Below, one piece after another: positions 12,503 through 33,115 of a stretch of DNA of 64,000 bases. Position 1 is the stretch's first letter. Each line of letters opens with the position of its first letter. A program made the position numbers and the translations under genes. The notes beneath the pieces were generated by a model. It was not told where the DNA came from and searched no databases. It saw only the letters and a list, made by a program, of their open reading frames with translations. The stretch comes from Allochromatium vinosum DSM 180 (GTDB taxonomy: Bacteria; Pseudomonadota; Gammaproteobacteria; Chromatiales; Chromatiaceae): positions 1,341,154 to 1,405,153 of the forward strand of contig NC_013851.1 in NCBI RefSeq assembly GCF_000025485.1. The letters run 5' to 3'.

Positions 12503-14011
12503 ATGAGCGAACTGCCGAATGATGGAACCGGCCCGAGCGAAGGGTCCGCCGCACTGGATACGGGATTGCGTGAACGCGCCGAGGAACGTTTGCGAACGCG
12601 GCTGTATGAACCCCGCGCGCGCCTGACACCCGAGGCGGCCGAGCGGTTGATCCATGAGCTGCGCGTGCATCAGATCGAGCTGGAATTGCAGAACGAGGAA
12701 CTGCACCGCACACAGGACGAGCTAGAGCTCCTGCACGCGCGCTACTTCGATCTCTACGAACTCGCGCCTGCCGGCTATCTCACGCTGAGCGAAACAGGTG
12801 TGATCCAGGAGGCCAATCTCGCGGCGGCTACTCTGCTCGGGGTCGAGCGCCGTCTCTTGACGCAGCAGCGACTGACCCGTTTCATCCATCCAGACGACCA
12901 GGACACGCATTACCAGGCACAACGCCGGCTCAGGTCCACGCGCAAGCCCCAGTCCTACGAGCTGCGTCTGCGACGCGAGCAGCCCCGGCCGGCGTGCTGG
13001 GTGTCGCTGGAGGTCTGTCTGGTGCCCGAGTCTCAGCCGCCGCCGGCTGGCTCCTGTCGCGTCATCCTGGTCGACATCACGGCGCGCAAGCGCGTCGAGC
13101 AGGCGCTGCGCGACAGCCAGGAGCGTCTGCGCCGAGTGACCGAGATCGCTGATGTGAGCTGCTGGGAGTGGGAGCCGCGCACAGATCACGTCCTGTTTCC
13201 GCCCGACTGGCACTGGCCGCCCCGCGAGGCGCAGGACATCCGCCCGACCTGTCTCGTCGACTGGTCGGATTGGCTGCACATCGAGGATCGTGTACGAATC
13301 CTGGCGCGACTGGCCGAATTCGTCGCCCATCCAACCGACGCCTGCGAGATCCAGTATCGGTTGCGGCGTGGGGATGGGCACTATGACTGGTTCCTGACCC
13401 GCCTGATGCCGATCCGCGACACCCAGGGTACCCTGGAGCGCGTGCTGCTGGTCGATCAGGACGTCACCCGCCGCAAGGAATCCGAGGAGCAGGCCATCCG
13501 GCTGGCCCAGCACGACCCGCTGACCGGCCTGCCGACGCGCGCCCTGCTCGACCAGCTCGCCCAGCACATGCTGGCCGGCACCCGCCGCGCAGGCACCCTA
13601 CTGGCGGTGCTGTTTTTCGATCTGGACGGCTTCAAGTCGGTCAATGACCAGTACGGCCATGCCGTCGGCGATCAACTGCTACGGGCTGTCGCGCAGCGGC
13701 TACGCACAGCCTTCCGTGCCGAGGATCTGGTCGCCCGGCTCGGCGGGGATGAATTCGTCGTGGTGCTGGCCAATGTGCGGGATATCGAACAGGCCCGGCG
13801 CATGGCCCGTCATGCCATCGACATCCTGACACCGGCCTACAGGTTGGATGGACTGGAGCTGGAGTGCGTCTCCAGTCTGGGCGTCAGTCTTTTTCCGCGC
13901 GATGGCGACAGTATCCAGACCCTGCTGCAACAGGCCGATCTGGCGCTCTACCAGGCCAAACGCTCGAACCCAGGCGGCTATTGGTTCGCTGGCGATTCAG
14001 TCAAGCCATGA
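12503..14011 (+). CDS. PAS-domain diguanylate cyclase (GGDEF)
   Basis: The product (502 aa) has a helical N-terminus, two PAS/PAC regions (about 75-200 and 200-325) and a C-terminal GGDEF domain. The active-site loop is intact (ARLGGDEFVVVL, residues 414-418), as is the DPLTGLPTR entry motif, so it should make c-di-GMP from GTP. No EAL domain and no transmembrane helix are visible, so it is a soluble sensor enzyme. It begins 34 nt after the CheB-CheR fusion with GGGAG before the ATG, suggesting one transcript and a shared PAS-sensed input. Confidence 0.88.
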   Translation: MSELPNDGTGPSEGSAALDTGLRERAEERLRTRLYEPRARLTPEAAERLIHELRVHQIELELQNEELHRTQDELELLHARYFDLYELAPAGYLTLSETGVIQEANLAAATLLGVERRLLTQQRLTRFIHPDDQDTHYQAQRRLRSTRKPQSYELRLRREQPRPACWVSLEVCLVPESQPPPAGSCRVILVDITARKRVEQALRDSQERLRRVTEIADVSCWEWEPRTDHVLFPPDWHWPPREAQDIRPTCLVDWSDWLHIEDRVRILARLAEFVAHPTDACEIQYRLRRGDGHYDWFLTRLMPIRDTQGTLERVLLVDQDVTRRKESEEQAIRLAQHDPLTGLPTRALLDQLAQHMLAGTRRAGTLLAVLFFDLDGFKSVNDQYGHAVGDQLLRAVAQRLRTAFRAEDLVARLGGDEFVVVLANVRDIEQARRMARHAIDILTPAYRLDGLELECVSSLGVSLFPRDGDSIQTLLQQADLALYQAKRSNPGGYWFAGDSVKP

Positions 14012-14303
14012 CGCCCGGTCGACACAGTCATCAGCCAAAGCGCATCGAAACGCCACAATGTGTGCTGAAAAAGTGGATCGATAATGTTCGATCAGGTTTC
14101 AATACTCACGATTTACATAATTTGTAATTTTAATAGATCATAATTCCGTAAACTTTCCCCCGCTTCACGCTGGCGGTCTCTGCGTGCCCTTCCTCCAACG
14201 AGTACGGCTCAGACCTCCAGACATCCGAATTCCGAGTTGGTAAGCGCCGTCATCATCCTCGGCGTCGCGCTCCCCTGACTGTCTCTGCCGGATTTAGCTG
14301 TCT
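14012..14303. promoter_or_regulatory. A+T-rich upstream region of the rnf-PFOR operon
   Basis: The 292-bp gap has a markedly A+T-rich core at about 14100-14150 (TTTACATAATTTGTAATTT then AATAGATCATAATTCC) in otherwise GC-rich DNA. A TTTACA box followed by TAATAG or CATAAT could form a promoter, but the spacing is not ideal (alternatives of about 14-21 nt). No sigma-54 -24/-12 element was found. This is the only sizeable gap before rnfB and is where the operon promoter should lie. Confidence 0.45.
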
Positions 14304-15179
14304 ATGGCAACCATCCTAACCGCCGTGGGCTTCATGGCCACGCTCGGCCTGCTGCTCGCCCTGATGTTGGTCATCGCCAACAAACGGCTCTATGTATTCG
14401 AAGATCCCCGCATCGACCAGGTCGAGGATCTGCTGCCCAAAGCCAACTGCGGCGCCTGTGGCGAGGCCGGCTGTCGGCCCTTCGCCGAAAAGCTGGTCAA
14501 GGGCGAGATCGACCCGGCACGCTGTACCGTCAACGCCAAGTCGATGAACCAGATCATCGCCGACTTCCTGGGCGTCGAGCTGAGTGCGCGCGAGCGCTGG
14601 GTGGCGCGTCTGGCCTGCGACGGCGGCGGCAATGTCGCCTATCTGCGCGCCAACTACAGCGGACTGCCGTCCTGCCGCGCCGCCGCACTGGTTTCGGGCG
14701 GTGGGCGTGGCTGCACCTGGGGCTGTCTGGGGTTCGGAGACTGTGAGACGGTGTGCGACTTCGATGCTATTTATATGAACCGCCAGGGCATCCCGGTCGT
14801 CATCGAAGACAAATGCACCGCCTGCGGCGAGTGCGTCACCGTCTGCCCCAAGGATCTGTTCGAGCTGCATCCGGTCAGTCACCGGCTGTGGGTCGCCTGC
14901 AAGAACCTGGAGTTCGGCGATCAGGCCGAGCATCACTGCGAAGTCGCCTGCACCGCGTGCGGGCGCTGCGTCCAGGACTCACCCGAGGGTTTGATCCAGC
15001 TCCAGGACAACCTCGCGGTGATCGATTATTCCAACAATGCACTGGCCTCCAAGGTCGCGATCGAGCGCTGCCCGACCGGCGCCATCGTCTGGCTGGAGGC
15101 CGATGGAACCGTCGTCAAGGGACGTGACGCGCGCAAGGTGCTGCGCAAGGGGACAAAGGGCGCCTTGCCGGCCGTCTGA
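14304..15179 (+). CDS. rnfB: Electron transport complex subunit RnfB (long form)
   Basis: RnfB (291 aa) is the Fe-S subunit that takes electrons from ferredoxin into the membrane Rnf complex. It has an N-terminal membrane helix (residues 5-27), a 4Fe-4S domain with KANCGACGEAGCRPFAE and a distal Cys, a further Cys-rich block (CTWGCLGFGDCETVCDFDAI) and two ferredoxin-type motifs. The first is CTACGECVTVCP. The second is CTACGRCVQDSPEG, whose usual fourth Cys is serine; a later Cys in ERCPTGAI may replace it. The long multi-cluster form resembles RnfB of acetogens. It heads the operon, 138 nt before the PFOR gene. Confidence 0.93.
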   Translation: MATILTAVGFMATLGLLLALMLVIANKRLYVFEDPRIDQVEDLLPKANCGACGEAGCRPFAEKLVKGEIDPARCTVNAKSMNQIIADFLGVELSARERWVARLACDGGGNVAYLRANYSGLPSCRAAALVSGGGRGCTWGCLGFGDCETVCDFDAIYMNRQGIPVVIEDKCTACGECVTVCPKDLFELHPVSHRLWVACKNLEFGDQAEHHCEVACTACGRCVQDSPEGLIQLQDNLAVIDYSNNALASKVAIERCPTGAIVWLEADGTVVKGRDARKVLRKGTKGALPAV

Positions 15180-15317
15180 GGCTGCGCGAGGTGGCGATGG
15201 CCCGCCCGTAAACCGCCGTCAGAGCGGTCGCGGTCGGGCGACTCGACATCGAATCGGTTGTGAGCCGCCGACCTGCGTCCGACGGCTCCCCTTAGAGAAT
15301 CAACACAGAGAAGGCCC

Positions 15318-18300
15318 ATGTTCGGTAAGAAAGACGAAAAGCAGTTCAAGTACCCTGGCACCCGTATGGCGATGGACGGCAACAGTGCCGTCATCATGTG
15401 CGAGCGCGAGGCCTCGGATGCCGCCGGTGCCTATCCGATCACGCCTTCCACCCAGATGGGCGAGTACTGGGCCGAGGAAGTGGCCAATGGGCATCTGAAT
15501 ATCTCGGGCAATCCGCTGATCTTCGTCGAGCCGGAGTCCGAGCACGCGGCGGCGGCCGTGACCGCCGGCATGTCGATGACGGGACTGCGCGCCACCAATT
15601 TCTCGTCGGCGCAGGGCGTGGCCTTCATGCACGAATCGCTCTATACGGCGGTCGGCAAGCGCCTGCCCTATGTGCTCAACATCGGCTCGCGCGCCATCAC
15701 CAAGGCCAGTCTCAACGTCCACTGCGCCCACGACGACTATCACTGTATCGACGACACCGGCTTCTTCCAGGTCTTCGGCAAGAACGCCCAGGAAGCGGCC
15801 GACCTGAACCTGATCGCGCGCAAGATCGCCGAGCTGACCCTGACGCCGGCCGCCGTCGGTCAGGACGGCTTCCTGACCACGCATCTGATCGAGCCGCTCA
15901 ATGTGCCCGAACGCGCGCTGGTCGAGGAGTTCTGCGGCCGTCCCGACGACATCATCGAGTGCCCGACCCCGGCCCAGCGTCTGGTCTATGGCCCGACCCG
16001 TCGCCGCGTGCCCCTGGTCTGGGACGTCGACAACCCGGTCAGCTCGGGCACGGTGCAGAACCAGGACGCCTACATGCAGGCGGTCGCCGCACAGCGTCCC
16101 TATTTCTTCGATCACATCGGGCCAATCGCCGATCAGGTGATGGCTGAGTACTACGAGCTGACCGGGCGTCGCTATGCGCGCGCTTGCGGCTATCGCTGCG
16201 AGGACGCCGAGTACGTGATCGTCGGTCAGGGCAGCATGGTCGTCCAGGCCGAGGCGGTGGCCGACTATCTGCGCGAGACCCGCAAGCTCAAGATCGGCGT
16301 CATCAATCTGACCATGTTCCGTCCCTTCCCCGGCGAGCTGATCGGCCGGATGTTGCAGGGCAAGAAGGGCGTGGCGATCCTGGAGCGCACCGACCAGCCG
16401 CTGGCCGAGGATCTGCCGATCATGTGCGAAGTGCGCGCGGCCCTGGCCAAGTGCATGGAGAACGGTCTGGCCGGCAAGGGCGAGGAGATCCCCTATGCGC
16501 CCTATCCGACCTACAAGGCCGGCGACATGCCGCGCCTCTACTCGGGCTGCTATGGTCTGGGTTCGCGCGACCTCCAGCCGGAAGGACTGATCGCCGCCGT
16601 CGAGAACATGATTCCGGGCGGTGCCGGTCGCAAGTTCTTCTATCTCTCGATCGACTTCATGCGCGAAGCGGCCGATCCCAAGGACGAGATCCGCATCCAG
16701 CAGTTGAAGGACGCCTATCCGCGCATCGGCGAGCTGGCCCTGCGCGGCAGCGAGAACCCGAACCTGCTGCCCAAGGGCGCGGTGACGGTGCGCATGCACT
16801 CGGTCGGCGGCTGGGGCGCCGTGACCACCGGCAAGAACCTGGCGATGACCCTCTATGATCTGCTGGGTTACGACATCCGCGCCAATCCCAAGTACGGCTC
16901 GGAGAAGAAGGGGCAGCCGACCACCTACTTCCTGTCGGCCGCGCCCGAGCCGATTCGCCTGAACTGCGAATACACCTATGTCGACGTGGTCCTGAGCCCG
17001 GACCCGAACGTCTTCACCCACTCCAACCCGCTCGCGGGTCTGCATCGCGGCGGACGCTTCGTCATCCAGTCGAGTCTGGAGAACGCCGAGCAGGTGTGGG
17101 CCAGCTTCCCGCCGGCGGCGCGCAAGTTCATCGTCGACAACGAGATCCGCGTCTATTACATCGACGGCTTCAGGATCGCGCGTGAAGAGGCCTCCAACGC
17201 CGAGCTGCAATTCCGCATGCAGGGCAACGCCTTCCAGGGCGCCTTCTTCGCCGCCTCGCCGCTGATGGAGCGTTCGGGACTCAATGAAACCGGTCTGTTC
17301 AACGCCATCGAGGAGCAGTTGCGCTCCAAGTTCGGTGCCAAGGGCGAGCGCGTGGTGCAGGACAACCTGCGCATCGTGCGCCGTGGTTTCGACGAGATCG
17401 TCGAGATCACCGACAAGCCGCTGGTCGCCGGTCAGCTCCTGACCCGCAAGGCACCGAGCCTGCCGATCATGCTCAAGGCCCTGCCCGAGGGCGACGGCCG
17501 TATCTCCGACGTGCATCGCTTCTGGGATCAGACCGGCGCCTTCTATGCCAGCGGCCGCGGCAGCGACAACCTGACCGATCCGCACATGGCCCTGTCGCTG
17601 ATGCCGGCCTCCACCGGCGTCTATCGCGACATGACCCAGATCCGCTTCGAGTATCCGAAGTTCCTGCCCGAGAACTGTACCGCCTGCGGCAACTGCTTCT
17701 CGATCTGTCCGGACAGCGCCATTCCGGGTCTGGTCAACAAGGTGTCCGATGTCTTCGCCACCGCGATCAATCGCGTCGAGCGCGGGATGCCGACCCAGTA
17801 TCTGCGCCGCGAGACCCGCAACGTCGAGAAGCGTCTGCGCGAGCTGGTCGAGACCGCCGGTGAGACGGCCGACATGCGCACGCTCATGGATCAGGCTGTG
17901 CTCGAAACCCTGGCCGCCTTCAGCGGCGAGCCGGAGCAGAAGGCCGTCGCCGAGAAGGAATTCGGTCTGATGATGGAGGCGCTCGGCGACTATCAGTTCG
18001 CCATCACCAAGCCCTACTGGACCAATCGCGAGAAGAAGCAGAAGGGCAGCGGCGGTCTGTTCAGCATCACCGTCAACCCCTACACCTGTAAGGGCTGTAT
18101 GGAGTGTATCGAGGTCTGTAACGACGGCGCCCTGGTCGCTGAGCCGCAGACCACCGAGAGCATCCAGCAGATGCAGAACCGCTGGGCCATGTGGCTGGAC
18201 CTGCCGACCACCGATCCGGACTTCATCCGCATCGAGGATCTCGACGACAAGGTCGGCGCGCTCGAAACCCTGCTGCTCGACAAGACCAACTACCAGTCGA

Positions 18301-20252
18301 TGGTCTCGGGCGACGGCTCCTGCATGGGCTGCGGCGAGAAGACCGCGATCCATCTGTTCACCGCCACGGTCACGGCGCTGATGCAGTCGCGCGTCAAGAA
18401 GCACCTGGCTGAGATCGACGACCTGATCAACCGTCTGGAAACCCACATCCGGCTCAAGCTGGCTTCGGGCATGGATCTGTCCAACTCGGCGGCCATTGCC
18501 AAGGCGCTCGACAGCCACAAGGACGCCGATCTGACCCTGTCCGGTCTCTCGGCCGAACTGGTGCACCAGGGCGCCCAGCCGGTCGATCCCGACTGGCTCA
18601 AGTGGGTCACTGGACTGCTGGCCAAGCTGCGTCATCTCAAGGCGCAGTACACCGACAAGCAGCCGCGCGCCAACATGGGCTTCGTCAACGCCACCGGCTG
18701 TACCTCGGTCTGGGGCGCGACCTTCCCTTACAACCCCTATCCCTTCCCCTGGTCGAACAACCTGTTCCAGGACTCGCCCTCGGTGGCCCTGGGTCTGTTC
18801 GAAGGTCACATGCGCAAGATGGGCGAGGGCTTCAAGGCCATCCGTCAGGCACGCATGGAGCTGGATGGGAAGTTCAAGCTGAACGATCCCGCGTGTGAGC
18901 TGAGCTATTTCGGCTGGAAGGACTTCAGCGACGAAGAGTGGCTGCTGTGTCCGCCGGTGGTCGCGGTCGGCGGCGACGGCGCCATGTATGACATCGGCTT
19001 CCAGAACCTGTCGCGTGCGCTCATGTCCGGCACCCCGGTCAAGATCCTGGTGGTCGACACGCAGAGCTATTCCAACACCGGCGGTCAGTCCTGTACCTCG
19101 GGCTTCGTCGGTCAGGTCGCCGACATGGCGCCCTACGGCAAGCAGTGGAAGGGCAAGACCGAGATCCGCAAGGAGATGGGCCTGATCGGCATGGCGCATC
19201 GCTCGGCCTTTGTGCTCTCCAGCTCGGCCTCGCACCTGACGCACCTGCTGGAAGGCTACATCGATGGTCTGAACGCGCGCCGTCCGGCCCTGTTCAACAT
19301 CTACACCTCGTGCCAGCCCGAGCACGGTATCGGCGACGACATGTCCAACAAGCATGGTCGCATGGCCGTGGAGTCGCGCGCCTATCCGCTGTTCCGCTTC
19401 GACCCGGACGCCGGCACCAGCCTGGAAGAGTGCTGCTCGATCGAGGGCAACCCGGACATCGACCGCGACTGGATCAGCTGGACGCTCAAGTACACCGACG
19501 AGAAGGGCAACCCGGCCGAGATGGAAGTGCCCTTCACCTTCGTCGACTTCGCCATGATCGAGGGCCGCTTCCGCAAGCACTTCCGCAAAGCGCCGCCCGA
19601 GACCTGGAACGACACCATGATCCCGGTGCACGAGTTCCTGGATCTGGCCGAGGACGAGCGCGAGGGGCTGCATCCCTACGTCTGGGGCGTGGACGGCAAG
19701 AACCGTCTGATGCGCGTCCTGGTCGCTCAGGAGCTGATCCACAGCTGCGAGGAGCGGCGCGCCTACTGGACCCAGTTGCGCGGACTCTGCGGCGAGCTCA
19801 ACAAGGTCGATGTCGAGTCGGTACGCCAGCAGGCCAAGGCCGAGATCGCCCAGAAGCTCACCAGCAGCCTGCTGGCACTGGCGGTCGGCGAGGGCGGACT
19901 GTCCGGTCTGGCCGGCGCGGCGCCCTCCAACGGCGCGGGTCACGGCGGAAATGGCGCGGCGCATCCGGGCGCCAACGGCTCGGGCAACGGCAGCGCCGAA
20001 GGCTGGGAGCCGGTGTGGGTCGAGACCCCCGAGTGCACCGCCTGCGACGAGTGCGTCACCATCAACCCCAAGATCTTCAAGTACAACGGTGACAAGAAGA
20101 TCGAGATCGTCGATCCCAAGGGCGGACCCTACAAGGACATCGTCAAGGCGGCCGAGAAGTGCGCCGCCGGCTGCATCCATCCGGGAATGCCCTGGAACCC
20201 GGCCGAGGCGGGCGTCGACAAGCTCGTCAAGCGCGCCGAGAAGTACCAGTAG
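15318..20252 (+). CDS. Pyruvate:ferredoxin (2-oxoacid) oxidoreductase, single-chain, with C-terminal ferredoxin domain
   Basis: This 1644-residue enzyme oxidises pyruvate with CoA to acetyl-CoA and CO2, giving reduced ferredoxin; reversal would fix CO2. Order: alpha domain (DAAGAYPITPSTQMGE), gamma and CoA-binding domains (VRMHSVGGWGAVTTGKNLA), then Fe-S motifs CTACGNCFSICP (from C787) and CKGCMECIEVCN (from C924), CMGCGEKT and the thiamine-diphosphate motif GDG at 1219-1221 with a later NTGGQ. A Gly/Asn/Ala-rich linker at about 1535-1560 leads to an extra ferredoxin domain starting CTACDEC (C1573). Single-chain PFORs are normally near 1170-1200 residues, so this is much longer; a helical insert of about 125 residues separates the two main Fe-S motifs. 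It sits between rnfB and rnfC. Confidence 0.9.
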   Translation: MFGKKDEKQFKYPGTRMAMDGNSAVIMCEREASDAAGAYPITPSTQMGEYWAEEVANGHLNISGNPLIFVEPESEHAAAAVTAGMSMTGLRATNFSSAQGVAFMHESLYTAVGKRLPYVLNIGSRAITKASLNVHCAHDDYHCIDDTGFFQVFGKNAQEAADLNLIARKIAELTLTPAAVGQDGFLTTHLIEPLNVPERALVEEFCGRPDDIIECPTPAQRLVYGPTRRRVPLVWDVDNPVSSGTVQNQDAYMQAVAAQRPYFFDHIGPIADQVMAEYYELTGRRYARACGYRCEDAEYVIVGQGSMVVQAEAVADYLRETRKLKIGVINLTMFRPFPGELIGRMLQGKKGVAILERTDQPLAEDLPIMCEVRAALAKCMENGLAGKGEEIPYAPYPTYKAGDMPRLYSGCYGLGSRDLQPEGLIAAVENMIPGGAGRKFFYLSIDFMREAADPKDEIRIQQLKDAYPRIGELALRGSENPNLLPKGAVTVRMHSVGGWGAVTTGKNLAMTLYDLLGYDIRANPKYGSEKKGQPTTYFLSAAPEPIRLNCEYTYVDVVLSPDPNVFTHSNPLAGLHRGGRFVIQSSLENAEQVWASFPPAARKFIVDNEIRVYYIDGFRIAREEASNAELQFRMQGNAFQGAFFAASPLMERSGLNETGLFNAIEEQLRSKFGAKGERVVQDNLRIVRRGFDEIVEITDKPLVAGQLLTRKAPSLPIMLKALPEGDGRISDVHRFWDQTGAFYASGRGSDNLTDPHMALSLMPASTGVYRDMTQIRFEYPKFLPENCTACGNCFSICPDSAIPGLVNKVSDVFATAINRVERGMPTQYLRRETRNVEKRLRELVETAGETADMRTLMDQAVLETLAAFSGEPEQKAVAEKEFGLMMEALGDYQFAITKPYWTNREKKQKGSGGLFSITVNPYTCKGCMECIEVCNDGALVAEPQTTESIQQMQNRWAMWLDLPTTDPDFIRIEDLDDKVGALETLLLDKTNYQSMVSGDGSCMGCGEKTAIHLFTATVTALMQSRVKKHLAEIDDLINRLETHIRLKLASGMDLSNSAAIAKALDSHKDADLTLSGLSAELVHQGAQPVDPDWLKWVTGLLAKLRHLKAQYTDKQPRANMGFVNATGCTSVWGATFPYNPYPFPWSNNLFQDSPSVALGLFEGHMRKMGEGFKAIRQARMELDGKFKLNDPACELSYFGWKDFSDEEWLLCPPVVAVGGDGAMYDIGFQNLSRALMSGTPVKILVVDTQSYSNTGGQSCTSGFVGQVADMAPYGKQWKGKTEIRKEMGLIGMAHRSAFVLSSSASHLTHLLEGYIDGLNARRPALFNIYTSCQPEHGIGDDMSNKHGRMAVESRAYPLFRFDPDAGTSLEECCSIEGNPDIDRDWISWTLKYTDEKGNPAEMEVPFTFVDFAMIEGRFRKHFRKAPPETWNDTMIPVHEFLDLAEDEREGLHPYVWGVDGKNRLMRVLVAQELIHSCEERRAYWTQLRGLCGELNKVDVESVRQQAKAEIAQKLTSSLLALAVGEGGLSGLAGAAPSNGAGHGGNGAAHPGANGSGNGSAEGWEPVWVETPECTACDECVTINPKIFKYNGDKKIEIVDPKGGPYKDIVKAAEKCAAGCIHPGMPWNPAEAGVDKLVKRAEKYQ

Positions 20253-20265
20253 GAGACAGTGAGGA

Positions 20266-20299
20266 GCGAACCGCATCGGTTGCGACCGATGCGGTTCGC
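20266..20299 (+). other. Intra-operon hairpin between PFOR gene and rnfC
   Basis: A perfect inverted repeat with 15-bp arms (GCGAACCGCATCGGT and its complement) encloses a TGCG loop, beginning 14 nt after the PFOR stop. It is not followed by a T-run, so it is unlikely to be a simple intrinsic terminator. In this position it probably stabilises the long upstream mRNA segment or sets relative expression of PFOR and rnfC. Confidence 0.75.
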
Positions 20300-20392
20300 G
20301 ACGCTCACCCCATCCTACGCGGGGCCGGCGAGACTCCGTGTTCTCTTCGCGTCCTGTGCGTCTTTGCGGTTCCAATTTGAGTGGATCTTGGT

Positions 20393-21841
20393 ATGAAGCA
20401 TCAAGCAGCGGCACTGGGTTCCAACTGCGCGCCCGACGCCGGGCATTCCAACCTGATGAAGCGAATCGGCCTGGGTTTCACGCGGCTCATCCATGGCCAC
20501 AAGACCTTCGATCACGGCATCTATCCGATCGAGCACAAGGAACTCACGGCCGGCAAGCCGATTCGGCGCCTGCCGTTCGCCGACGAGCTGGTCATCCCCT
20601 TGCAGCAGCACAAGGGCCGCGCCTCGGTGCCGATCGTCAAGGTCGGCCAGGAGGTCGTGCGCGGCGAGCCGATCGCGGTGGCCGATCATTTCGTCTCCGT
20701 GCCCATGCACGCACCGGCGACCGGCGTGATCCGCGCCATCGGGCTGGCGCCGACCGCCGAGGGTCCGAAGACCCAGGCGATCTTCCTCAAGGTCTACCAT
20801 GCCGCCAGCCAGCAGGTGCTCTACGGCAGCGCGTGCGAACCCGAGCAGATGAACGTCAAGGACATCATCCAGGCGGTTCAGGATGCGGGGCTGGTCGGAC
20901 TCGGCGGCGGGGCGTTTCCGAGCCACGTCAAGATGCAGCCGCCCGCCGGTCGGGTGATCCATACGGTGCTGGTCAACGGCTGCGAGTGTGAGCCGTATCT
21001 CACCTGCGACCATCGCATCATGCTGGAGCAGACCGAGAATCTGATCCGGGGCATTCGGATCGCCCTGCGGGCCACGCGCGCCGAACGCGCCATCATCGGC
21101 GTCGAGGACAACAAGCTCGATGCCGTGAGCCATCTGCGCGCGCGCCTCCCCAAGCATCTGCCGATCACGGTCGAGGCGGTCCGGACCAAGTATCCGCAGG
21201 GCGCCGAGAAGATGCTCATCACCGCGCTGCTCGATGCCGAAGTTCCGGCCGGCGGTTTGCCCGCCGATGTCGGCGTGGCGGTGTTCAACGTCGGCACCCT
21301 GGCGCAGATGGGTGAACTGGTGCCCAGGGGACAGGGACTCATCGAGCGCGTGGTCACGGTCAGCGGACCGGCGGTCAAGAATCCGGGCAACTTCCTGGTG
21401 CCGATCGGCACCCCAGTGCGCTTCCTGCTCGATCAGGTCGGCTTCAAGGGGCCGCTGGGGCAGGTGATCCTGGGTGGCCCCATGATGGGTATGGCTGTGG
21501 CCTCGCTCGATGTGCCCGTCACCAAGTCGGTCTCGGGCGTGGTGGCGCTGGAGCCGGAAGATCCGGCGCTGGCGCGGCGTCAGGTCTATCCCTGCATCAA
21601 GTGCGGCGAGTGTCTGCGTGCCTGTCCGGTCTCGCTCAATCCCTCGATGCTCGGTGAGCTGGCGGTGGCGCGCGAATACGGCGTCATGGCCGAGCAGTTC
21701 AATCTCGACCAGTGCTTCGAGTGCGGCTGCTGTGCTTTCGTCTGTCCGTCCAACATCCCGCTGACCCAATATTTCCGCATCGCCAAGTCGATCAATCGCG
21801 ATGCCCGGCGGCGGGACGAGGCCAAGCAAACCCAGCACTGA
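20393..21841 (+). CDS. rnfC: Electron transport complex subunit RnfC
   Basis: RnfC (482 aa) is the peripheral subunit that exchanges electrons with NAD(H) through FMN. The nucleotide/FMN loop GLGGGAFPSHVKM and the two 4Fe-4S motifs CIKCGECLRACP and CFECGCCAFVCPSNIP are complete. The N-terminal KTFDHGIYPIEHKELT segment is typical. I chose the ATG at 20393; a GTG four codons earlier is open but has no better ribosome-binding site. It ends about 100 nt before rnfD, a gap that contains a GC-rich hairpin element. Confidence 0.94.
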   Translation: MKHQAAALGSNCAPDAGHSNLMKRIGLGFTRLIHGHKTFDHGIYPIEHKELTAGKPIRRLPFADELVIPLQQHKGRASVPIVKVGQEVVRGEPIAVADHFVSVPMHAPATGVIRAIGLAPTAEGPKTQAIFLKVYHAASQQVLYGSACEPEQMNVKDIIQAVQDAGLVGLGGGAFPSHVKMQPPAGRVIHTVLVNGCECEPYLTCDHRIMLEQTENLIRGIRIALRATRAERAIIGVEDNKLDAVSHLRARLPKHLPITVEAVRTKYPQGAEKMLITALLDAEVPAGGLPADVGVAVFNVGTLAQMGELVPRGQGLIERVVTVSGPAVKNPGNFLVPIGTPVRFLLDQVGFKGPLGQVILGGPMMGMAVASLDVPVTKSVSGVVALEPEDPALARRQVYPCIKCGECLRACPVSLNPSMLGELAVAREYGVMAEQFNLDQCFECGCCAFVCPSNIPLTQYFRIAKSINRDARRRDEAKQTQH

Positions 21842-21852
21842 GCGGCCTGAGC

Positions 21853-21896
21853 ATCCCCCTCTCCCCAACCCCGCTCCCGCGAGGGAGGAGGGGGCG
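21853..21896. repeat. CCCTCTC / GAGGGGG imperfect inverted repeat between rnfC and rnfD
   Basis: The element has an outer CCCCCTC arm paired with GGAGGGGG and an inner perfect CTCCC-GCGA-GGGAG hairpin. A similar arrangement (CCCCTC ... GAGGGG) occurs at about 48971-48994 between apbC and modD. Such dispersed CCCTC/GAGGG hairpins are common in proteobacterial intergenic DNA. It may act as an mRNA processing or stability site within the rnf operon. Confidence 0.5.
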
Positions 21897-21943
21897 TGCC
21901 GGCACCGAGAAATCACTGAATCACTGAAGACTGATGACGAACC

Positions 21944-22972
21944 ATGTCTAGAGGCATCGAAATCCGCACCTCCCCGCATCTCAAGCGGGTGGTGACGGTC
22001 GACAAGATCATGCGCACCGTGGTGCTGGCGCTACTGCCGATCGCGGCCTTCGCGGTCTGGCAGTTCGGGCTGAGCGCGCTGCTGCTGCTCCTGACCACCA
22101 CGGGCGTGGCCATCCTGACCGAAGCGTTCTTCGCCCGCGCCAGCGGTCGAGGCAACACGGTCTCAGACTGGTCGGTGGTCATCACCGGTCTGCTGCTGGG
22201 ACTGACCCTGCCGCCCGGCTTTCCGTTGTGGATGGCGGCGGTGGCGGCGTTCGTCGGTGTGGCGCTCGGCAAGGCGCTGTTCGGCGGGCTGGGCTACAAC
22301 GTCATGAATCCGGCCCTGGTCGGACGCGCCTTCGTGCAGGCGGCCTTTCCGGTGGCCATCACCACCTGGACGCCGGCCTTCGCGCCCGGTCGCTTCACCG
22401 AAGTCATTCCCTCGACCCTGACGCTGCCCTTCATGCAGCCGATCCCGGTCGGCGACTGGATCGCGAGTCTGAACCTGGACGGCTGGAGCGGAGCTACGCC
22501 CCTGGCGATCCAGAAGTTCCAGCACATCGAAACGCCGATCATGGATACCTTCAGCGGGATGATCGCCGGTTCGGCGGGCGAGACCTCGGCGATCCTGATC
22601 CTGATCTGCGGTCTGTGGCTGGCCTGGCAGCGGATGCTCGACTGGCGTATCCCGGTCAGCGTCATGGCCGGCGCGGTCCTGGTGGCGCTGCCGTTCTGGC
22701 TGCTCGATCCGAGTCTCTATCCGAGTCCCTGGTTCGTGCTCTGCTCGGGCGGGCTGATGCTGGGCGCCTGGTTCATGGCCAGCGACATGGTGGCCTCGCC
22801 GGTGACGGCGACCGGCGTGGTGATCTACGGACTCTTCATCGGTGCGCTGACGGTCGTCATCCGGCTGTTCGGCGGTCTGGTCGAGGGCATCATGTACGCC
22901 ATCCTGCTCGCCAATGCGCTCGGGCCGCTGATTTCGAGCTGGACCCAGCCGCGCGTTTACGGCTCCAAATAG
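21944..22972 (+). CDS. rnfD: Electron transport complex subunit RnfD
   Basis: RnfD (342 aa) is a polytopic inner-membrane subunit with covalently bound FMN. About nine or ten hydrophobic helices are visible. The flavinylation motif SGATPLA is present with the predicted FMN-carrying Thr185. The N-terminal SPHLKRVVTVDKIMRTV and the GYNVMNPALVGRAF segment are typical. Paired with RnfE and RnfA, it forms the ion-translocating membrane core. It is followed by rnfG after 12 nt. Confidence 0.95.
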   Translation: MSRGIEIRTSPHLKRVVTVDKIMRTVVLALLPIAAFAVWQFGLSALLLLLTTTGVAILTEAFFARASGRGNTVSDWSVVITGLLLGLTLPPGFPLWMAAVAAFVGVALGKALFGGLGYNVMNPALVGRAFVQAAFPVAITTWTPAFAPGRFTEVIPSTLTLPFMQPIPVGDWIASLNLDGWSGATPLAIQKFQHIETPIMDTFSGMIAGSAGETSAILILICGLWLAWQRMLDWRIPVSVMAGAVLVALPFWLLDPSLYPSPWFVLCSGGLMLGAWFMASDMVASPVTATGVVIYGLFIGALTVVIRLFGGLVEGIMYAILLANALGPLISSWTQPRVYGSK

Positions 22973-22984
22973 AGTAGGGTAGAG

Positions 22985-23677
22985 ATGACGACCGAAGTAC
23001 AGATTCAACCTCAAGCGGCGAGCACGCCGGCCTGGGCCATGCTGCGCACCCTGGGCGGCATCGCGCTGCTCTCCGGGCTGCTGGTGGCCCTGGTCTACCA
23101 GTTCACCCTGCCGATCATCGCCGAGAATCAGCGTGTCCTGACCGAGAAGGCCGTGTTCCGCGTGCTGCCGGGCGCGGTCGGCAAGCGCGATTTCGTCATC
23201 ACGCCCGAGGGCGGACTGGCGCCCGCCGAGGCGGGTGCGAGCGGCGATCTCATCTACGGCGCCTATGATGCCGGCGGCCGGTTGCTGGGTCTGGCCATCA
23301 CCGGCTCGGGTCCGGGCTATGCCGGTCCGGTCAAAGTGATGTTCGCCTATGACCCGAGCTGCGACTGCATCACCGGCAGCAAGGTGCTCCAGTCCAACGA
23401 GACGCCCGGTTTCGGCGACAAGCTCGACTTCGACCCCGACTTCCTCAAGAACTTCGAGGCACTCGACGCGCGTCTGGATGCCGCCGGCACGGCGCTCGCC
23501 AATGCCATCGTCACCGTCAAGCACGGCACCAAATCCGAGCCTTGGCAGATCGACGCCATCACGGGCGCGACCATCTCATCCAAGGCGATGGGCCGCGCGG
23601 CCAACAGCGCCGCGCAACGCGCCGTACCGGCCATCGAGCGTGATCTGGCCGTGCTCACGTCGCCACCCTCGCCCTGA
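22985..23677 (+). CDS. rnfG: Electron transport complex subunit RnfG
   Basis: RnfG (230 aa) has one N-terminal membrane helix (about residues 20-42) and a periplasmic FMN-binding domain. The ApbE-type flavinylation motif D-A-I-T-G-A-T is intact, with Thr196 predicted to carry FMN. The motif GSGPGYAGPVKVMFAYDP and the run ETPGFGDKLDF are family hallmarks. It relays electrons on the outer face of the membrane between RnfC/RnfB-side carriers and RnfD. No apbE flavin transferase gene is in the window, so it must be encoded elsewhere. Confidence 0.95.
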   Translation: MTTEVQIQPQAASTPAWAMLRTLGGIALLSGLLVALVYQFTLPIIAENQRVLTEKAVFRVLPGAVGKRDFVITPEGGLAPAEAGASGDLIYGAYDAGGRLLGLAITGSGPGYAGPVKVMFAYDPSCDCITGSKVLQSNETPGFGDKLDFDPDFLKNFEALDARLDAAGTALANAIVTVKHGTKSEPWQIDAITGATISSKAMGRAANSAAQRAVPAIERDLAVLTSPPSP

Positions 23678-23710
23678 ACAACCGAGAGAGCCACTGCGAG
23701 ACTCCGAGTC

Positions 23711-24373
23711 ATGCCTGAATTGCTCAATCCACAAGAAAAACTCACCCCGGACACCTTCCTGCGCGGTCTGTGGGAGGAGAACCCGGTGTTCGTGATGCTG
23801 CTCGGCATGTGTCCGGTGCTGGCGGTCACGAGCACGACCCTGAATGCCATTGCGATGGGACTGGCGACCACCTTCGTGCTGGTCTGCTCCAGCCTGCTGA
23901 TCTCGCTGCTGCGCAACTGGATACCCAAGCAGGTGCGCATCGCCAGCTACATCGTCATCATCGCCACCTTCGTCACTATCGTCGACTATGCCATCCAGGC
24001 CATCAGTCTGGAGCTGTACGCGGCGCTCGGCGCCTTCATCCAGCTCATCGTCGTCAACTGTGTGATCCTGGGCCGCGCCGAGGCCTATGCCTCCAAGCAG
24101 CGGCTGCACACCACCCTAGTCAACAGTCTAGGCATGGGTGTGGGCTTCACCTTGGCGCTGCTGGCGCTCGGCACGGTGCGCGAGGTGCTGGGCAATGGCA
24201 CCCTGCTCGGTATTCCACTCTTCGGGCCGGATTTCCAGCCCTGGCTGGTGATGATCCTGCCGCCGGGCGGTTTCTTCGTGCTCGGCGTCTGGCTGTTGCT
24301 GTTCAACTGGCTGCGTCAGAGCAAGGTCCGCCGCGCCGCGCAATTCTCGGGAGCACCCGCCGATGCACGCTGA
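23711..24373 (+). CDS. rnfE: Electron transport complex subunit RnfE
   Basis: RnfE (220 aa) is a six-helix membrane subunit homologous to RnfA and NqrD. The conserved GMCPVLAVTSTTLNAIAMG contains the half-membrane Cys that, with RnfA, ligates a 2Fe-2S cluster within the bilayer. VNCVILGRAEAYASK contributes the second Cys. The start ATG follows GAGAG about 20 nt upstream, with no clear strong site closer. It overlaps rnfA by 11 nt. Confidence 0.95.
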   Translation: MPELLNPQEKLTPDTFLRGLWEENPVFVMLLGMCPVLAVTSTTLNAIAMGLATTFVLVCSSLLISLLRNWIPKQVRIASYIVIIATFVTIVDYAIQAISLELYAALGAFIQLIVVNCVILGRAEAYASKQRLHTTLVNSLGMGVGFTLALLALGTVREVLGNGTLLGIPLFGPDFQPWLVMILPPGGFFVLGVWLLLFNWLRQSKVRRAAQFSGAPADAR

Positions 24374-24953
24374 ACCCTTGTCGCTGATCTTTCTCAACGC
24401 CGCCATCGTCAACAACTTCGTGCTGGCGCTGTTTCTCGGCATCTGTCCCTTCCTCGGCGTCTCGGGCAAGAAGGAGACGGCCTGGAACATGGGTCTGGCC
24501 ACGATGTTCGTGATGCTGGTCAGCTCGGCCGCCGCCTATGGCATCAACTGGCTGCTGACCCAGCTCGGGCTGGAGTTCCTGCGTCTGATCTGCTACATCG
24601 CCGTGATCGCCTCGGCGGTGCAACTGGTCGAGATGTTCGTCAAGAAGACCAGTCCGGCGCTGTTTCGCTCGCTCGGTATCTTCCTGCCGCTCATCACCAC
24701 GAACTGCGCCATCCTGGGTCTGGCGCTGTTCCAGACCTCCAAGGAATACGACTTCGTGCAGAGTCTGGTCTATGCGCTGGGCGCGGGTGTGGGCTTCACC
24801 CTGGCGCTGATGCTGATGGCCGGTCTGCGCGAAAAGCTGGCGCTGGCCAGGGTGCCGAGCGTCAGTCAGGGCGCGGCCCTGAGCCTGATGCTGGCGGGGC
24901 TGCTGTCGCTGGCGTTCATGGGTTTCGCCGGACTGGGAGGCGGGCATGGTTGA
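24363..24953 (+). CDS. rnfA: Electron transport complex subunit RnfA
   Basis: RnfA (196 aa) is the six-helix partner of RnfE with inverted topology. Its conserved cysteines lie in FLGICPFLGVSGK and TTNCAILGLALFQ and should complete the intramembrane 2Fe-2S site. The gene overlaps rnfE by 11 nt and the following mini-gene by 8 nt, so the three are probably translationally coupled. The order rnfC-D-G-E-A matches acetogenic clostridia rather than the A-B-C-D-G-E order of the E. coli rsx operon. Confidence 0.95.
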   Translation: MHAEPLSLIFLNAAIVNNFVLALFLGICPFLGVSGKKETAWNMGLATMFVMLVSSAAAYGINWLLTQLGLEFLRLICYIAVIASAVQLVEMFVKKTSPALFRSLGIFLPLITTNCAILGLALFQTSKEYDFVQSLVYALGAGVGFTLALMLMAGLREKLALARVPSVSQGAALSLMLAGLLSLAFMGFAGLGGGHG

Positions 24954-25122
24954 GATACTGCTCGCGCCGCTGGTCGTCTTTCTGGCGCTTGCCGGCTGGG
25001 TCGGGGTGCAGCAGCTCTATGCACGCTTTCAGGCCCGCTATCCGCAACTTGGCCCTTTCCGCGACTCGGGCGGGGGCTGCTCTTGCACCAAGGGGCACTG
25101 CTCCTCTAAAAACGCTTGCTGA
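24946..25122 (+). CDS. Cys-rich single-span mini membrane protein (58 aa), probable Rnf accessory
   Basis: This short ORF overlaps the rnfA end by 8 nt. It encodes a 58-residue protein with one N-terminal transmembrane helix (residues 3-20), a short basic/aromatic linker and a C-terminal cysteine cluster, C-S-C-x4-C-x5-C at the extreme end. The layout of one helix plus four clustered cysteines resembles NqrM, the small maturation factor of the related Na+-NQR, and FeoB-associated Cys-rich proteins; I see layout similarity, not proven homology. The role suggested by position is iron delivery for the RnfA/RnfE intramembrane 2Fe-2S cluster. Confidence 0.7.
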   Translation: MVEILLAPLVVFLALAGWVGVQQLYARFQARYPQLGPFRDSGGGCSCTKGHCSSKNAC

Positions 25123-25216
25123 TTCGCACCGATCCGCTCGGTTCGCGTTTCTCTCGATCACATCAATGCATCCTCTCGCGTCCAGCCAGCGGTCGCCAGA
25201 GTGAAGGAGTGACTGG

Positions 25217-26080
25217 ATGAGTCAACAAGACATCAGATACATCGGCCCGACCGCACCGGCGGTCATCAAGGCCAGCCAGCGCATCACGCCCGAGACCACG
25301 GATGAGGTGCGCCACATCACGCTCGAGGTGCTCGACCCGGCCTTCCAGTTCGTCGAGGGCCAGAGCATCGGCGTGCTGGTGCCCGGACCGCACGAATTCG
25401 GCAATGCGATGCACGTGCGCCGTTACTCGATCGCCAATGCGCGCAACGTCCCGATTGGCGGCGGGGTGCATCTGGACGTTCTGGTGCGTCGCTGTTTCTA
25501 CCTCGACGAAGTCAGCGGCGAGCGCTATCCGGGCGTGGCCTCGAACTATCTGTGCGATGCCAAGCCGGGCGACCAGATCACCATCAGCGGCCCCTATCTC
25601 AGCCCCTTCCGTATGCCGCTCGACAATCGCGCCAATCTGCTGATGATCGGTACCGGCACCGGCATTGCGCCCTTCCGCGCCTTCGCTCAGCTCATCTACG
25701 AGCGTCGCGGCGACTGGAAAGGGCAGGTGCGGCTCTACTACGGCGGTCACAGCGGTCTGGACCTGATGTACGCCAACGACGAGACCAGCGACCTGACGCA
25801 CTACTACGACGAGAAGACCTTCCAGGCCTTCCGCGCGCTGGGCACGAAGCCGCTGATGAGTTCCTCGCAGGCGCTGGAGCAGGGTTTGACCGAGCACGCC
25901 GCCGAGGCCTGGCGTCTGATGCGCGAGCCGAACACCCATGTGTTCCTGTCCGGTCTGAGCAAGGTCACGCAGGCGTTCGATCGGGTCATGGCCAAGCAGG
26001 CCGGCTCCGAGGCGGAGTGGAAGCGGCTCAAGCAGCGTCTGATCGACGATGGACGCTGGTCGGAGCTGATCTACGACTGA
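25217..26080 (+). CDS. Ferredoxin-NADP+ reductase (plant-type FNR fold)
   Basis: The 287-residue flavoprotein has the FAD-binding motif RRYSIANA near residue 72 and the pyridine-nucleotide motif GTGTGIAPFRAF near residue 143. It ends with a C-terminal region in which ELIYD closes the chain, as in plant-type reductases. It should transfer electrons between reduced ferredoxin and NADP+. GGAG at about 25204 is 8-9 nt before the ATG at 25217. It lies 94 nt after the Cys-rich mini-gene, on the same strand as the rnf genes, and is followed by a hairpin terminator, so it is probably the last gene of the operon. Confidence 0.88.
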   Translation: MSQQDIRYIGPTAPAVIKASQRITPETTDEVRHITLEVLDPAFQFVEGQSIGVLVPGPHEFGNAMHVRRYSIANARNVPIGGGVHLDVLVRRCFYLDEVSGERYPGVASNYLCDAKPGDQITISGPYLSPFRMPLDNRANLLMIGTGTGIAPFRAFAQLIYERRGDWKGQVRLYYGGHSGLDLMYANDETSDLTHYYDEKTFQAFRALGTKPLMSSSQALEQGLTEHAAEAWRLMREPNTHVFLSGLSKVTQAFDRVMAKQAGSEAEWKRLKQRLIDDGRWSELIYD

Positions 26081-26177: not shown

Positions 26178-27119
26178 TCAGGCGCCCAGAAACGCCCGCG
26201 CCGTCCCGGCGTCGCGCTGGATCTGCCCCCGAAGCGCCTCGAACGACTCGAAACGCTGCTCGTCGCGCAGACGCAGCACCAGTTCGACTTCCAGATGCCG
26301 GCCGTAGATCGACTGGTCGAAGTCGAACAGATGCACCTCCAGCCGCGCGCCGGTCCCGTCGACCGTCGGGCGCGTGCCGATGTTGGCCACGCCCGGCCAG
26401 GGTTCCGAACCCAGCCCCTTCACCCGCACCGCATAGACTCCGCGTACCGGGCTGACACGCCTGTGCAGCGCGATATTGGCCGTCGGGAAACCGATGGCGC
26501 GACCGCGCTTGTCGCCATGCACCACGCGCCCTTCCAGGCAATAAGGTCGGCCGAGCAAATGCCGCGCCTGTTCCAGATCGCCGCGCGCCAGCGCCTCGCG
26601 CACCCGTGTGCTGCTGATGCGCTCGGCGCCATGGGTGATGGTGTGCAGATCCTCGACCGCGAATCCGGCCCCGTTCGCCTCGGCTACGCGCCCCATGTCC
26701 CGCAGCAGCGCGAAATCGCCCGTGCGTCCGCGTCCGAACCGGAAGTCGTCGCCGACCAGCAGGAAGCGCACGCCCAGCCCCTCGATCAGCAGCCGCTGAA
26801 CGAACTCCGGCGCCGGCATCGCCGCCAACCTTGGCCCGAACTCCAGCAGCATCACCCGTTCGATGTCGCTCGCGCGCAGTGCCCCGAGCTTCTCGCGCAA
26901 CCGGGTCAACCGCGCCGGCGCCGACTCGGGTGCGAACACCTCCATCGGCTGAGGCTCGAAGGTGATCACGGTCGCCGGCAAGCCCAGCTCACACCCGCGC
27001 GCCAGCAACCGCTGGAAGACCGCGCGATGCCCCAGATGCACCCCGTCGAAGTTGCCGATCGTGGCGACACAGCCGCGATCGGCGGGGCGCAGATTGTGCA
27101 GGCCCCGGATCAGTCTCAT
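26178..27119 (-). CDS. ribF: Bifunctional riboflavin kinase / FAD synthetase RibF
   Basis: RibF (313 aa) converts riboflavin to FMN and FMN to FAD. The N-terminal nucleotidyltransferase domain has GNFDGVHLGHRAVFQRL near residue 22 and SSTRVREALARGD. The C-terminal kinase domain has GRAIGFPTANI and GVYAVRV. Its start codon overlaps the stop of the upstream bciB gene as ATGA. Flavin supply is relevant to both neighbours: BciB and the Rnf/FNR proteins use flavins. In many gammaproteobacteria ribF sits beside ileS and lspA instead, so this context is different. Confidence 0.93.
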   Translation of the reverse strand: MRLIRGLHNLRPADRGCVATIGNFDGVHLGHRAVFQRLLARGCELGLPATVITFEPQPMEVFAPESAPARLTRLREKLGALRASDIERVMLLEFGPRLAAMPAPEFVQRLLIEGLGVRFLLVGDDFRFGRGRTGDFALLRDMGRVAEANGAGFAVEDLHTITHGAERISSTRVREALARGDLEQARHLLGRPYCLEGRVVHGDKRGRAIGFPTANIALHRRVSPVRGVYAVRVKGLGSEPWPGVANIGTRPTVDGTGARLEVHLFDFDQSIYGRHLEVELVLRLRDEQRFESFEALRGQIQRDAGTARAFLGA

Positions 27120-28387: not shown

Positions 28388-28692
28388 GCGGCGGCCTCGA
28401 TGGCGCGCGCGGCGCGCGTGCTGGCGGGAAGGGTGGCGAAGATCATCGTTGTCGTCCTCCGGCAGATGGATCTGTGCTCGGGTCGAGCCGAACGGGGCGC
28501 TATTGTATGCCATAAGCGCTTCGGACTCGCCGCCGACACATTAAACTTGACCTTGCCTAGCGATGGGCGCTAGGGTCGCGAGTTCGATTTTCGCGCCCGC
28601 GCCTGAGCGCGCTCGATTCGGGTGCTCGCGCTCGCCAGACCCTGTACACCCATTTCGACACACTAGAAACACTAGAACTAGGTTCGCCGCGT
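28388..28692. promoter_or_regulatory. Divergent bciB / bchI promoter region
   Basis: This 305-bp gap separates bciB from bchI and must hold both promoters. It contains a palindrome CTAGCG-ATGGG-CGCTAG at 28557-28573, a TTGACC box at 28547-28552 and a TGT-N12-ACA motif close to bchI (separate entry). A TACAAT hexamer on the - strand (28502-28507) could be a -10 box for bciB, although I find no good -35 partner. No coding potential is seen in the gap. Confidence 0.55.
28643..28660 (+). promoter_or_regulatory. TGT-N12-ACA palindrome (CrtJ/PpsR-type operator)
   Basis: The 18-mer TGTACACCCATTTCGACA matches the TGT-N12-ACA consensus bound by the aerobic photosynthesis repressors CrtJ/PpsR. It lies 32 bp before the bchI start codon, a position where binding could block initiation. 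Only one such site was noticed in this gap, whereas CrtJ/PpsR often uses two. Redox control of bchI-bchD is therefore likely but not proven. Confidence 0.55.
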
Positions 28693-31638: not shown

Positions 31639-31714
<76 letters not shown>

Positions 31715-31798
31715 CTCACTCTTGAACGGCTTCGAGCCGGTCTCCGTTCTTGCAGGGCAGGCTCTTCGCCCCTGGAAGCCAAAGGCTGGAAGCTGGAT

Positions 31799-33115
<1,317 letters not shown>

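Follow-up and report, generated by a model that had tools for sequence, protein, structure and literature searches.

Why a giant pyruvate:ferredoxin oxidoreductase (PFOR) should be encoded inside an rnf operon is the question raised by a 64,000-nucleotide (nt) stretch of DNA from Allochromatium vinosum DSM 180 (the window), which is part of a 3,669,074-bp genome in three contigs. On the + strand of the window, between positions 14304 and 26080, the open reading frame (ORF) coordinates give the order rnfB, giant PFOR, rnfC-D-G-E-A, a Cys-rich mini gene and a ferredoxin-NADP reductase (FNR)-like gene, and Pfam and NCBIfam identified every product except the mini protein. The original prediction had described this order with its short gaps and overlaps, and had proposed that the ferredoxin pool of the PFOR is matched directly to Rnf. 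The order was confirmed, with all genes on the + strand and intergenic gaps of 138, 128, 102, 12, 33, -11, -8 and 94 nt from rnfB to the FNR-like gene. Three RnfD-type hits were found in the host genome, at about 652, 1363 and 3035 kb, the window cluster being the middle one; the genome paper, where it treats these genes, counts three rnf clusters and describes their role as entirely unclear (PMC3368242). As argued below, the operon probably encodes an Rnf subtype in which a dedicated PFOR would serve as the electron entry (or exit) module.

Relatives of the giant PFOR were searched in 146 genomes of the family and in one genome collection across bacteria and archaea (the best 80 of 168 relatives), and the neighbourhoods of the 110 distinct giant PFORs left after duplicate removal were read. 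Where at least 500 nt were available upstream, rnfB preceded the giant PFOR in 98 of 101 distinct loci, and where 600 nt were available downstream, rnfC followed it in 96 of 99; the whole rnfC-D-G-E-A set stood beside it in 85 of 87. Apparent exceptions included L128, an artefact of an over-long ORF call in which rnfB is seen, and L123, which ends 639 nt past the PFOR. According to their record titles, the Rnf-linked copies belong to Gammaproteobacteria (two Shewanella strains included), Opitutaceae, Planctomycetota, Spirochaetia, 'Deltaproteobacteria', Gemmatimonadota, Rokubacteria and others, those outside Chromatiaceae-like bacteria being metagenome bins except Shewanella, and single labels may be wrong. 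The closest named record among the matches listed was A. humboldtianum (99% in PFOR).

The pairing was also assayed in reverse. A search of the 146 family genomes gave 106 RnfB relatives with E ≤ 1e-60, and at least 103 of these lie ahead of a giant PFOR or of its clade B paralogue (see below) on the same strand, with a median gap of 144 nt and a largest one of 1864 nt. All 71 relatives with an identity of at least 58% do so, as do at least 32 of the 35 with 49-53%, and of the three misses one is at the end of a contig. The window RnfB is a distinct type, sharing only 27-28% identity with the RnfB of the other two rnf clusters of the host. In the contrast set, rnfB adjoins none of five clade C giant PFORs and none of 11 split PFORs, three split-PFOR loci having a weak partial rnfC match nearby. 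Because the order is kept in about 100 distinct loci, this gene-order survey excludes a chance arrangement, and because the pairing recurs across several phyla, the PFOR looks like a dedicated part of the pump and not a chance neighbour. Far from being absent in every related genome, the arrangement is widespread, and the functional matching of PFOR and Rnf, at first only proposed, is now strongly supported by a reciprocal association of their genes in several phyla.

Trees of the PFOR and of concatenated RnfB-C-D-E-A were then compared. Over 83 loci their distances correlated with r = 0.965, against at most 0.25 in 500 permutations; vertical descent alone could yield such a correlation. Well-supported splits of the Rnf tree recurred in the PFOR tree in 37 of 61 cases, and those of the PFOR tree in the Rnf tree in 36 of 46. 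Further, two Opitutaceae copies join the gammaproteobacterial loci L054 and L056 in both trees (support 0.997 and 0.999), and two Shewanella copies join L043 in both (0.70 and 1.0), as would be expected if the unit moves whole. The agreement of PFOR and Rnf in these trees thus appears good but incomplete, with the cross-group placements as a stronger point than the correlation.

The giant PFOR is composed, in order, of POR_N, PFOR_II, POR, two [4Fe-4S] motifs, a thiamine diphosphate (TPP) domain, an extra C-terminal domain, a linker and a ferredoxin-like domain, and exceeds the solved PFOR chains (1171-1232 residues) by 410-470 residues. Its domain order, dicluster motifs, TPP domain, and catalytic and Cys residues are those of homodimeric PFOR/NifJ (6cin, which we take to be from Moorella, and 1b0p and 7plm, which we take to be from Desulfovibrio africanus), whereas its spaced Fe-S motifs, extra C-terminal domain, linker and ferredoxin tail set it apart. 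The marks of the PFOR superfamily (TPP motif, substrate residues, proximal Cys and two ferredoxin-type clusters) were present in 108-109 of the 109 rows of clade A: Thr and Arg in 108, Glu and the TPP Asp/Asn in 109, and each of the four proximal-cluster Cys and of the eight Cys of two further clusters in 109, the assignment of these residues to thiamine, substrate and proximal-cluster sites following their presumed roles. The window protein scored 380.7 bits with the NifJ equivalog model TIGR02176, below the cut-off of 911.35, and by its sequence is a member of the PFOR superfamily outside that equivalog. A NifJ-like gene elsewhere in the host genome (open frame 1238) has 26-28% identity to it.

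In an AlphaFold model of residues 1355-1644, the Gly/Ala/Asn-rich linker (about residues 1524-1561) was predicted to be disordered, with a predicted local distance difference test score below 50 at model residues 170-207, while the extra C-terminal domain (model residues 1-140) was predicted to be folded and gave no convincing fold match in the PDB by Foldseek. The ferredoxin tail was best matched by D. africanus ferredoxin I (Foldseek E 0.019; TM 0.81 by target length), a natural partner of D. africanus PFOR. From a helix anchor to the first ferredoxin Cys, 101 sequences spanned 34-182 residues (median 92; the shortest value comes from a sequence with a removed X run), a range expected of the flexible tether that the linker is predicted to form. 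The ferredoxin-tail Cys were kept in 101-102 of the 109 clade A rows. Eight rows are without the first ferredoxin Cys, four of them at a contig edge and one, L055, with a frame break, whereas L107, L111 and L146 are truly without the domain; since L107 and L111 are without the ferredoxin tail, the tether is not obligatory.

The substrate of the giant PFOR was considered from the same residues. That it acts on another 2-oxoacid, such as 2-oxoglutarate, or on several, and not mainly on pyruvate, would accord with its score far under the NifJ cut-off and with the KorA and/or KorB-type genes near 20 clade A loci. However, the conserved Thr, Glu and Arg, which presumably line the pyruvate site in D. 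africanus PFOR, are kept, KorA and KorB are encoded by separate genes that are absent beside the cluster of the window, and the nearest solved chains are PFORs, so that a main substrate other than pyruvate appears improbable.

A paralogous cluster (cluster B) in the family, whose PFOR paralogue was read in eight loci (L057-L060, L062, L063, L065 and L067), bears on the role of the PFOR in the pump. Its best-case order is a NuoF-like gene, KorA, KorB, an 832-aa protein with a ferredoxin tail, rnfB, a 1550-aa PFOR paralogue, (sucC-sucD) and rnfC-D-G-E-A; an example occupies L059:1-19945. KorA and KorB are our own labels for proteins that Pfam shows to be 2-oxoacid oxidoreductase subunits. KorA in the same orientation was found in six of the eight loci and sucC-sucD in three, and from the look of the Kor-type proteins together with sucCD, we infer that 2-oxoglutarate would be the substrate of cluster B. 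None of the eight clade B paralogues has the Thr or Glu of the substrate site, the Asn of the TPP site or the Lys of the CoA site, and the four proximal-cluster Cys were kept in 0, 1, 0 and 0 of them, while all eight Cys of the two other [4Fe-4S] clusters were kept in all eight. Judged by these residues, the paralogue is very likely inactive. Since the wire motifs are kept and most active-site residues are lost beside Kor-type genes and Rnf, it is best read as a scaffold and electron wire between a 2-oxoacid oxidoreductase and Rnf.

An origin of cluster B by recent duplication in Chromatiaceae was rejected: clade A, copies from other phyla included, came out as a single group with support 1.0 in both trees, and B lies outside it, the support at the root being moderate (0.72 and 0.84 in the two trees). 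In Gemmatimonadota-type loci, KorA and KorB precede rnfB and the PFOR is intact; because these loci pair KorAB with an intact PFOR, KorAB, PFOR and Rnf may already have been combined in the common ancestor. The same loci carry, between korB and rnfB, a protein of about 330 aa with no Pfam match (L124:7112-8116, L129:7107-8102 and L137:7114-8085), a candidate further subunit. Separately, the clade C giant PFORs (L061, L064, L066, L154 and L160; about 1700 aa) have intact catalytic motifs and a variant ferredoxin tail, and the split PFORs (L149-L153, L155-L159 and L161), found elsewhere in the phylum, have a first part of about 700 aa and in some cases lie near sucCD and Kor-like genes.

If the giant PFOR is a dedicated module, it would lie at the cytoplasmic face of Rnf, near RnfB. 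The electron path would begin at thiamine diphosphate, lead over the proximal [4Fe-4S] cluster and the two others to the tethered ferredoxin domain, and continue through the RnfB clusters, RnfA/E and the flavin sites to RnfC and NAD. The net reaction, pyruvate + CoA + NAD+ = acetyl-CoA + CO2 + NADH, would be reversible and coupled to ion transport. We favour a reverse run in the light, in which the ion gradient and NADH may supply ferredoxin-level electrons for pyruvate synthesis from acetyl-CoA, and a forward run in dark anaerobic metabolism. This scheme builds on the gene order, its conservation and reciprocity, the catalytic and Fe-S residues and the predicted tethered ferredoxin domain, while protein contact, direction and ion are inferred. 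A more far-reaching form, which we put slightly below an even chance, is that 2-oxoacid oxidoreductases have become built-in subunits of Rnf, making it an ion-pumping pyruvate:NAD oxidoreductase (2-oxoglutarate:NAD in the sister clusters): the giant PFOR would be both catalyst and scaffold, and the sister paralogue an inactive scaffold with electron wires, catalysis being left to KorAB. By analogy, complex I may be likened to it in having recruited old enzymes as subunits.

Several observations weigh against a dedicated module. Conservation of the operon is also compatible with a shared diffusible ferredoxin; the clade A PFORs of L132 and L146 have no Rnf neighbour at all, L107 and L111 are Rnf-linked and tailless, and in L127 (a chromosome record, 13900-23007) the module breaks off inside rnfC, and rnfD-A do not follow. 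The tree agreement is partial, 44 of 80 splits being shared overall, and the Foldseek E-values of the ferredoxin domain are weak even at their best. Substrate assignment rests on residues only, the clade B paralogue retains the Arg in six of eight sequences and the TPP Asp in two, and in L061 rnfE and rnfA lie upstream of the clade C PFOR, at a distance of 2.7 kb. In the family, pyruvate dehydrogenase (PDH) and 2-oxoglutarate dehydrogenase (OGDH) are nearly universal, the genome of the window included, and a clade A row is missing for 27 of 57 phototrophs.

Some of these points, together with the gaps of 128-138 nt and a hairpin that permit differing amounts of the proteins, would suit co-regulation only, in which PFOR and Rnf share a soluble ferredoxin and form no complex, the C-terminal ferredoxin domain merely speeding electron release. 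Against it stand the order kept between phyla, the near-complete reciprocity, and the persistence in a second Rnf cluster of a catalytically degraded PFOR paralogue with two clusters intact. Co-regulation only is thus considered rather unlikely, and the dedicated PFOR module is preferred.

The original prediction had also included NADP reduction, in a unit that exchanges carbon, ion gradient, NADH and NADPH through PFOR, Rnf and ferredoxin-NADP reductase. The FNR-like gene lies 94 nt past the mini gene, and its product keeps the flavin motif R-x-Y-S in 42 of 46 rows and the nucleotide motif GTG-x-x-PFR in all 46 (duplicates included). When 44 of the 46 fetched family loci were scored (two were excluded because the stretch was too short), with a PF00124 hit defining a phototroph, the gene followed rnfA in all 19 phototroph loci, compared with 12 of 25 non-phototroph loci. 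However, Ser-Arg...Lys/Arg-x-Tyr, which we take to be the plant-type NADP 2'-phosphate signature, was not conserved in the window protein or in the printed rows of the 46-row alignment, and another mode of NADP binding may apply. Further, the FNR-like gene is the least conserved member of the operon (45 of 87 loci), is absent after rnfA in 13 of the 25 non-phototroph loci, and was undetected in most loci outside Chromatiaceae-like bacteria and Opitutaceae. The NADP coupling was therefore not borne out: the product of the FNR-like gene is a flavoprotein whose specificity for NADP is putative, NADP reduction is unsupported by these residues, and the NADPH-exchanging unit is quite improbable. In one locus, two tandem FNR-like genes follow rnfA (L039:17098-18825, the same locus as L086), with 57% and 40% identity to that of the window.

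The Cys-rich mini protein is a more constant partner, with homologues in 69 of 87 loci. By a feature test, a small Cys-rich protein with a single transmembrane (TM) segment was encoded directly 3′ of rnfA in 80 of 85 clade A and four of five clade B loci, the clade B miss (L062) having a mini protein of 102 residues, just above the length limit of the test. Behind the other genes of the clusters (rnfE, G, D, C, PFOR and rnfB) the same test gave no such protein, nor did it at the one antisense site examined in each locus or in the other two rnf clusters of the host. As these positions indicate, the mini protein is a companion of this Rnf type in most loci. C45, C47 and C52 were invariant in 14 rows. 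The window protein had no Pfam or NCBIfam match, and other families (PspB, FeoB-associated, a toxin-subunit model and others) appeared at E 0.0016-0.22 in one or two of the 14, which was taken as chance. The mini protein shares a layout (small TM protein, Cys cluster, encoded with the pump) that we presume to be that of NqrM, including its Cys-rich nature. NqrM of Na-NQR is, like the mini protein, small, membrane-bound and encoded alongside its complex, in the part of a 2025 review that treats it (PMC12174285), whereas none of the 14 mini proteins matched the NqrM family model at E up to 10, and membership of that family was rejected. By analogy with NqrM, the mini protein is most likely an assembly or maturation factor for a membrane [2Fe-2S] site.

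The identity of the pump itself was assessed from its subunits (Table 1). All six subunit genes, rnfA, B, C, D, G and E, are present, five of their products passing the TIGR subfamily cut-offs and that of rnfG falling short. The FMN-attachment motifs of RnfD and RnfG and an NADH-binding RnfC, which also carries two C..C..C...C-type 4Fe-4S motifs, were found.

Table 1. Features of the rnf-PFOR operon, in positions of the window.
Feature	Position	Strand	Description
rnfB	14304..15179	+	291 aa, 20 Cys, long Fe-S type; TIGR01944 99.7 bits (cut-off 68.7); FeS PF04060
giant PFOR	15318..20252	+	1644 aa; basis: Pfam, residue conservation, AlphaFold of residues 1355-1644, Foldseek
predicted tethered single-cluster ferredoxin-like domain of PFOR	20031..20249	+	about residues 1572-1644; Fer4_13 8e-7
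stem-loop between PFOR and rnfC	20266..20299	+	perfect 15-bp stem, no T tract
rnfC	20381..21841	+	486 aa; GTG start, alternative ATG 20393; TIGR01945 482 bits; Complex1_51K, SLBB
rnfD	21944..22972	+	TIGR01946 300 bits; FMN-type motif SGAT at residue 182
rnfG	22985..23677	+	PF04205; TIGR01947 90.1 bits (below 102-bit cut-off); FMN-type motif TGAT at residue 193
rnfE	23711..24373	+	TIGR01948 237.9 bits (cut-off 213.4)
rnfA	24363..24953	+	overlaps rnfE; TIGR01943 244 bits (cut-off 229.3)
mini gene	24946..25122	+	58 aa, single-TM, Cys-rich; overlaps rnfA
FNR-like flavoprotein gene	25217..26080	+	phmmer to cyanobacterial/plant FNR, down to 1e-37

The hairpin noted earlier between PFOR and rnfC was recovered as a perfect stem, the stretch 20240-20385 folding at -69.3 kcal/mol (z -4.3 vs. 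shuffled sequences). Two looser copies of the palindrome, with 3 mismatches, occur elsewhere in the genome, and its sequence may represent a REP-like element or an mRNA stabiliser. A promoter scan was uninformative (2 sites vs. 1.7 expected), as were the terminator-like sites (10 vs. 6.0 expected). Downstream of the operon, ribF and a gene for an FrhB/FpoF-like coenzyme F420-type beta subunit lie convergently on the - strand (26178-28513), followed by bchI and bchD. A tRNA-Ala(CGC) at 31639-31714 overlaps the first start codon of an NtrC-type regulator ORF (31676-33115), and the regulator gene therefore probably starts later.

Compared with known systems, the operon shares with the Rnf complex (RnfABCDGE) the six subunits, the FMN motifs of RnfD and RnfG, and the NADH/FMN and Fe-S domains of RnfC, and differs in the giant PFOR between rnfB and rnfC and in the Cys-rich mini gene after rnfA. 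A PFOR in this position is already known from one symbiont genome: for the rnf2 operon of the Solemya velum symbiont, the genome paper of 2014 places PFOR genes between rnfB2 and rnfC2 and suggests pyruvate as the donor, in a single sentence that, as far as that passage goes, covers neither the giant size, the tethered ferredoxin, the mini protein and the inactive paralogue nor the breadth of the arrangement (PMC4287430). For the Riftia symbiont, reductive tricarboxylic acid cycle genes and 2-oxoacid oxidoreductases are discussed together with Rnf, and the text concerned does not describe a PFOR inside rnf (PMC11636981). The main text of the 2025 review of RNF and NQR does not use the term PFOR (PMC12174285). 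Searches of the open-licence PMC literature gave no report of the giant architecture, its cross-phylum breadth, the inactive paralogue or the mini protein.

Two simple physiological roles were rejected. Replacement of PDH or OGDH by the modules does not hold as a general rule, as aceE was found in 137 and sucA in 136 of the 146 family genomes (E ≤ 1e-100). Absence of aceE was slightly commoner in cluster B carriers, at 4 of 33 vs. 5 of 113 others (Fisher p 0.12), and absence of sucA was not, at 3 of 33 vs. 7 of 113 (p 0.69). Because both dehydrogenases are near-universal and the host also has the NifJ-like gene, the module is unneeded for pyruvate oxidation as such. Nor is it confined to phototrophs: of the 74 genomes of the family that carry clade A, 44 gave no reaction-centre hit and 30 gave one. 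A literature search by locus tag for expression data gave only the genome paper.

If the dedicated-module reading is true, an ion pump would be directly coupled to the decarboxylation of pyruvate (and, in the sister clusters, of 2-oxoglutarate). Run in reverse, it would let an ion gradient made in the light power the fixation of CO2 into pyruvate, with no need for a free pool of low-potential ferredoxin. The paralogue, apparently inactive but with its electron-wire motifs kept, would then show, as an experiment of nature, how enzymes turn into subunits of a respiratory complex, and the mini protein is a candidate maturation factor for an Rnf membrane iron-sulfur site. In A. vinosum, a culturable host, one of the three rnf clusters, described by the genome paper as entirely unclear in function, would thereby gain a role.

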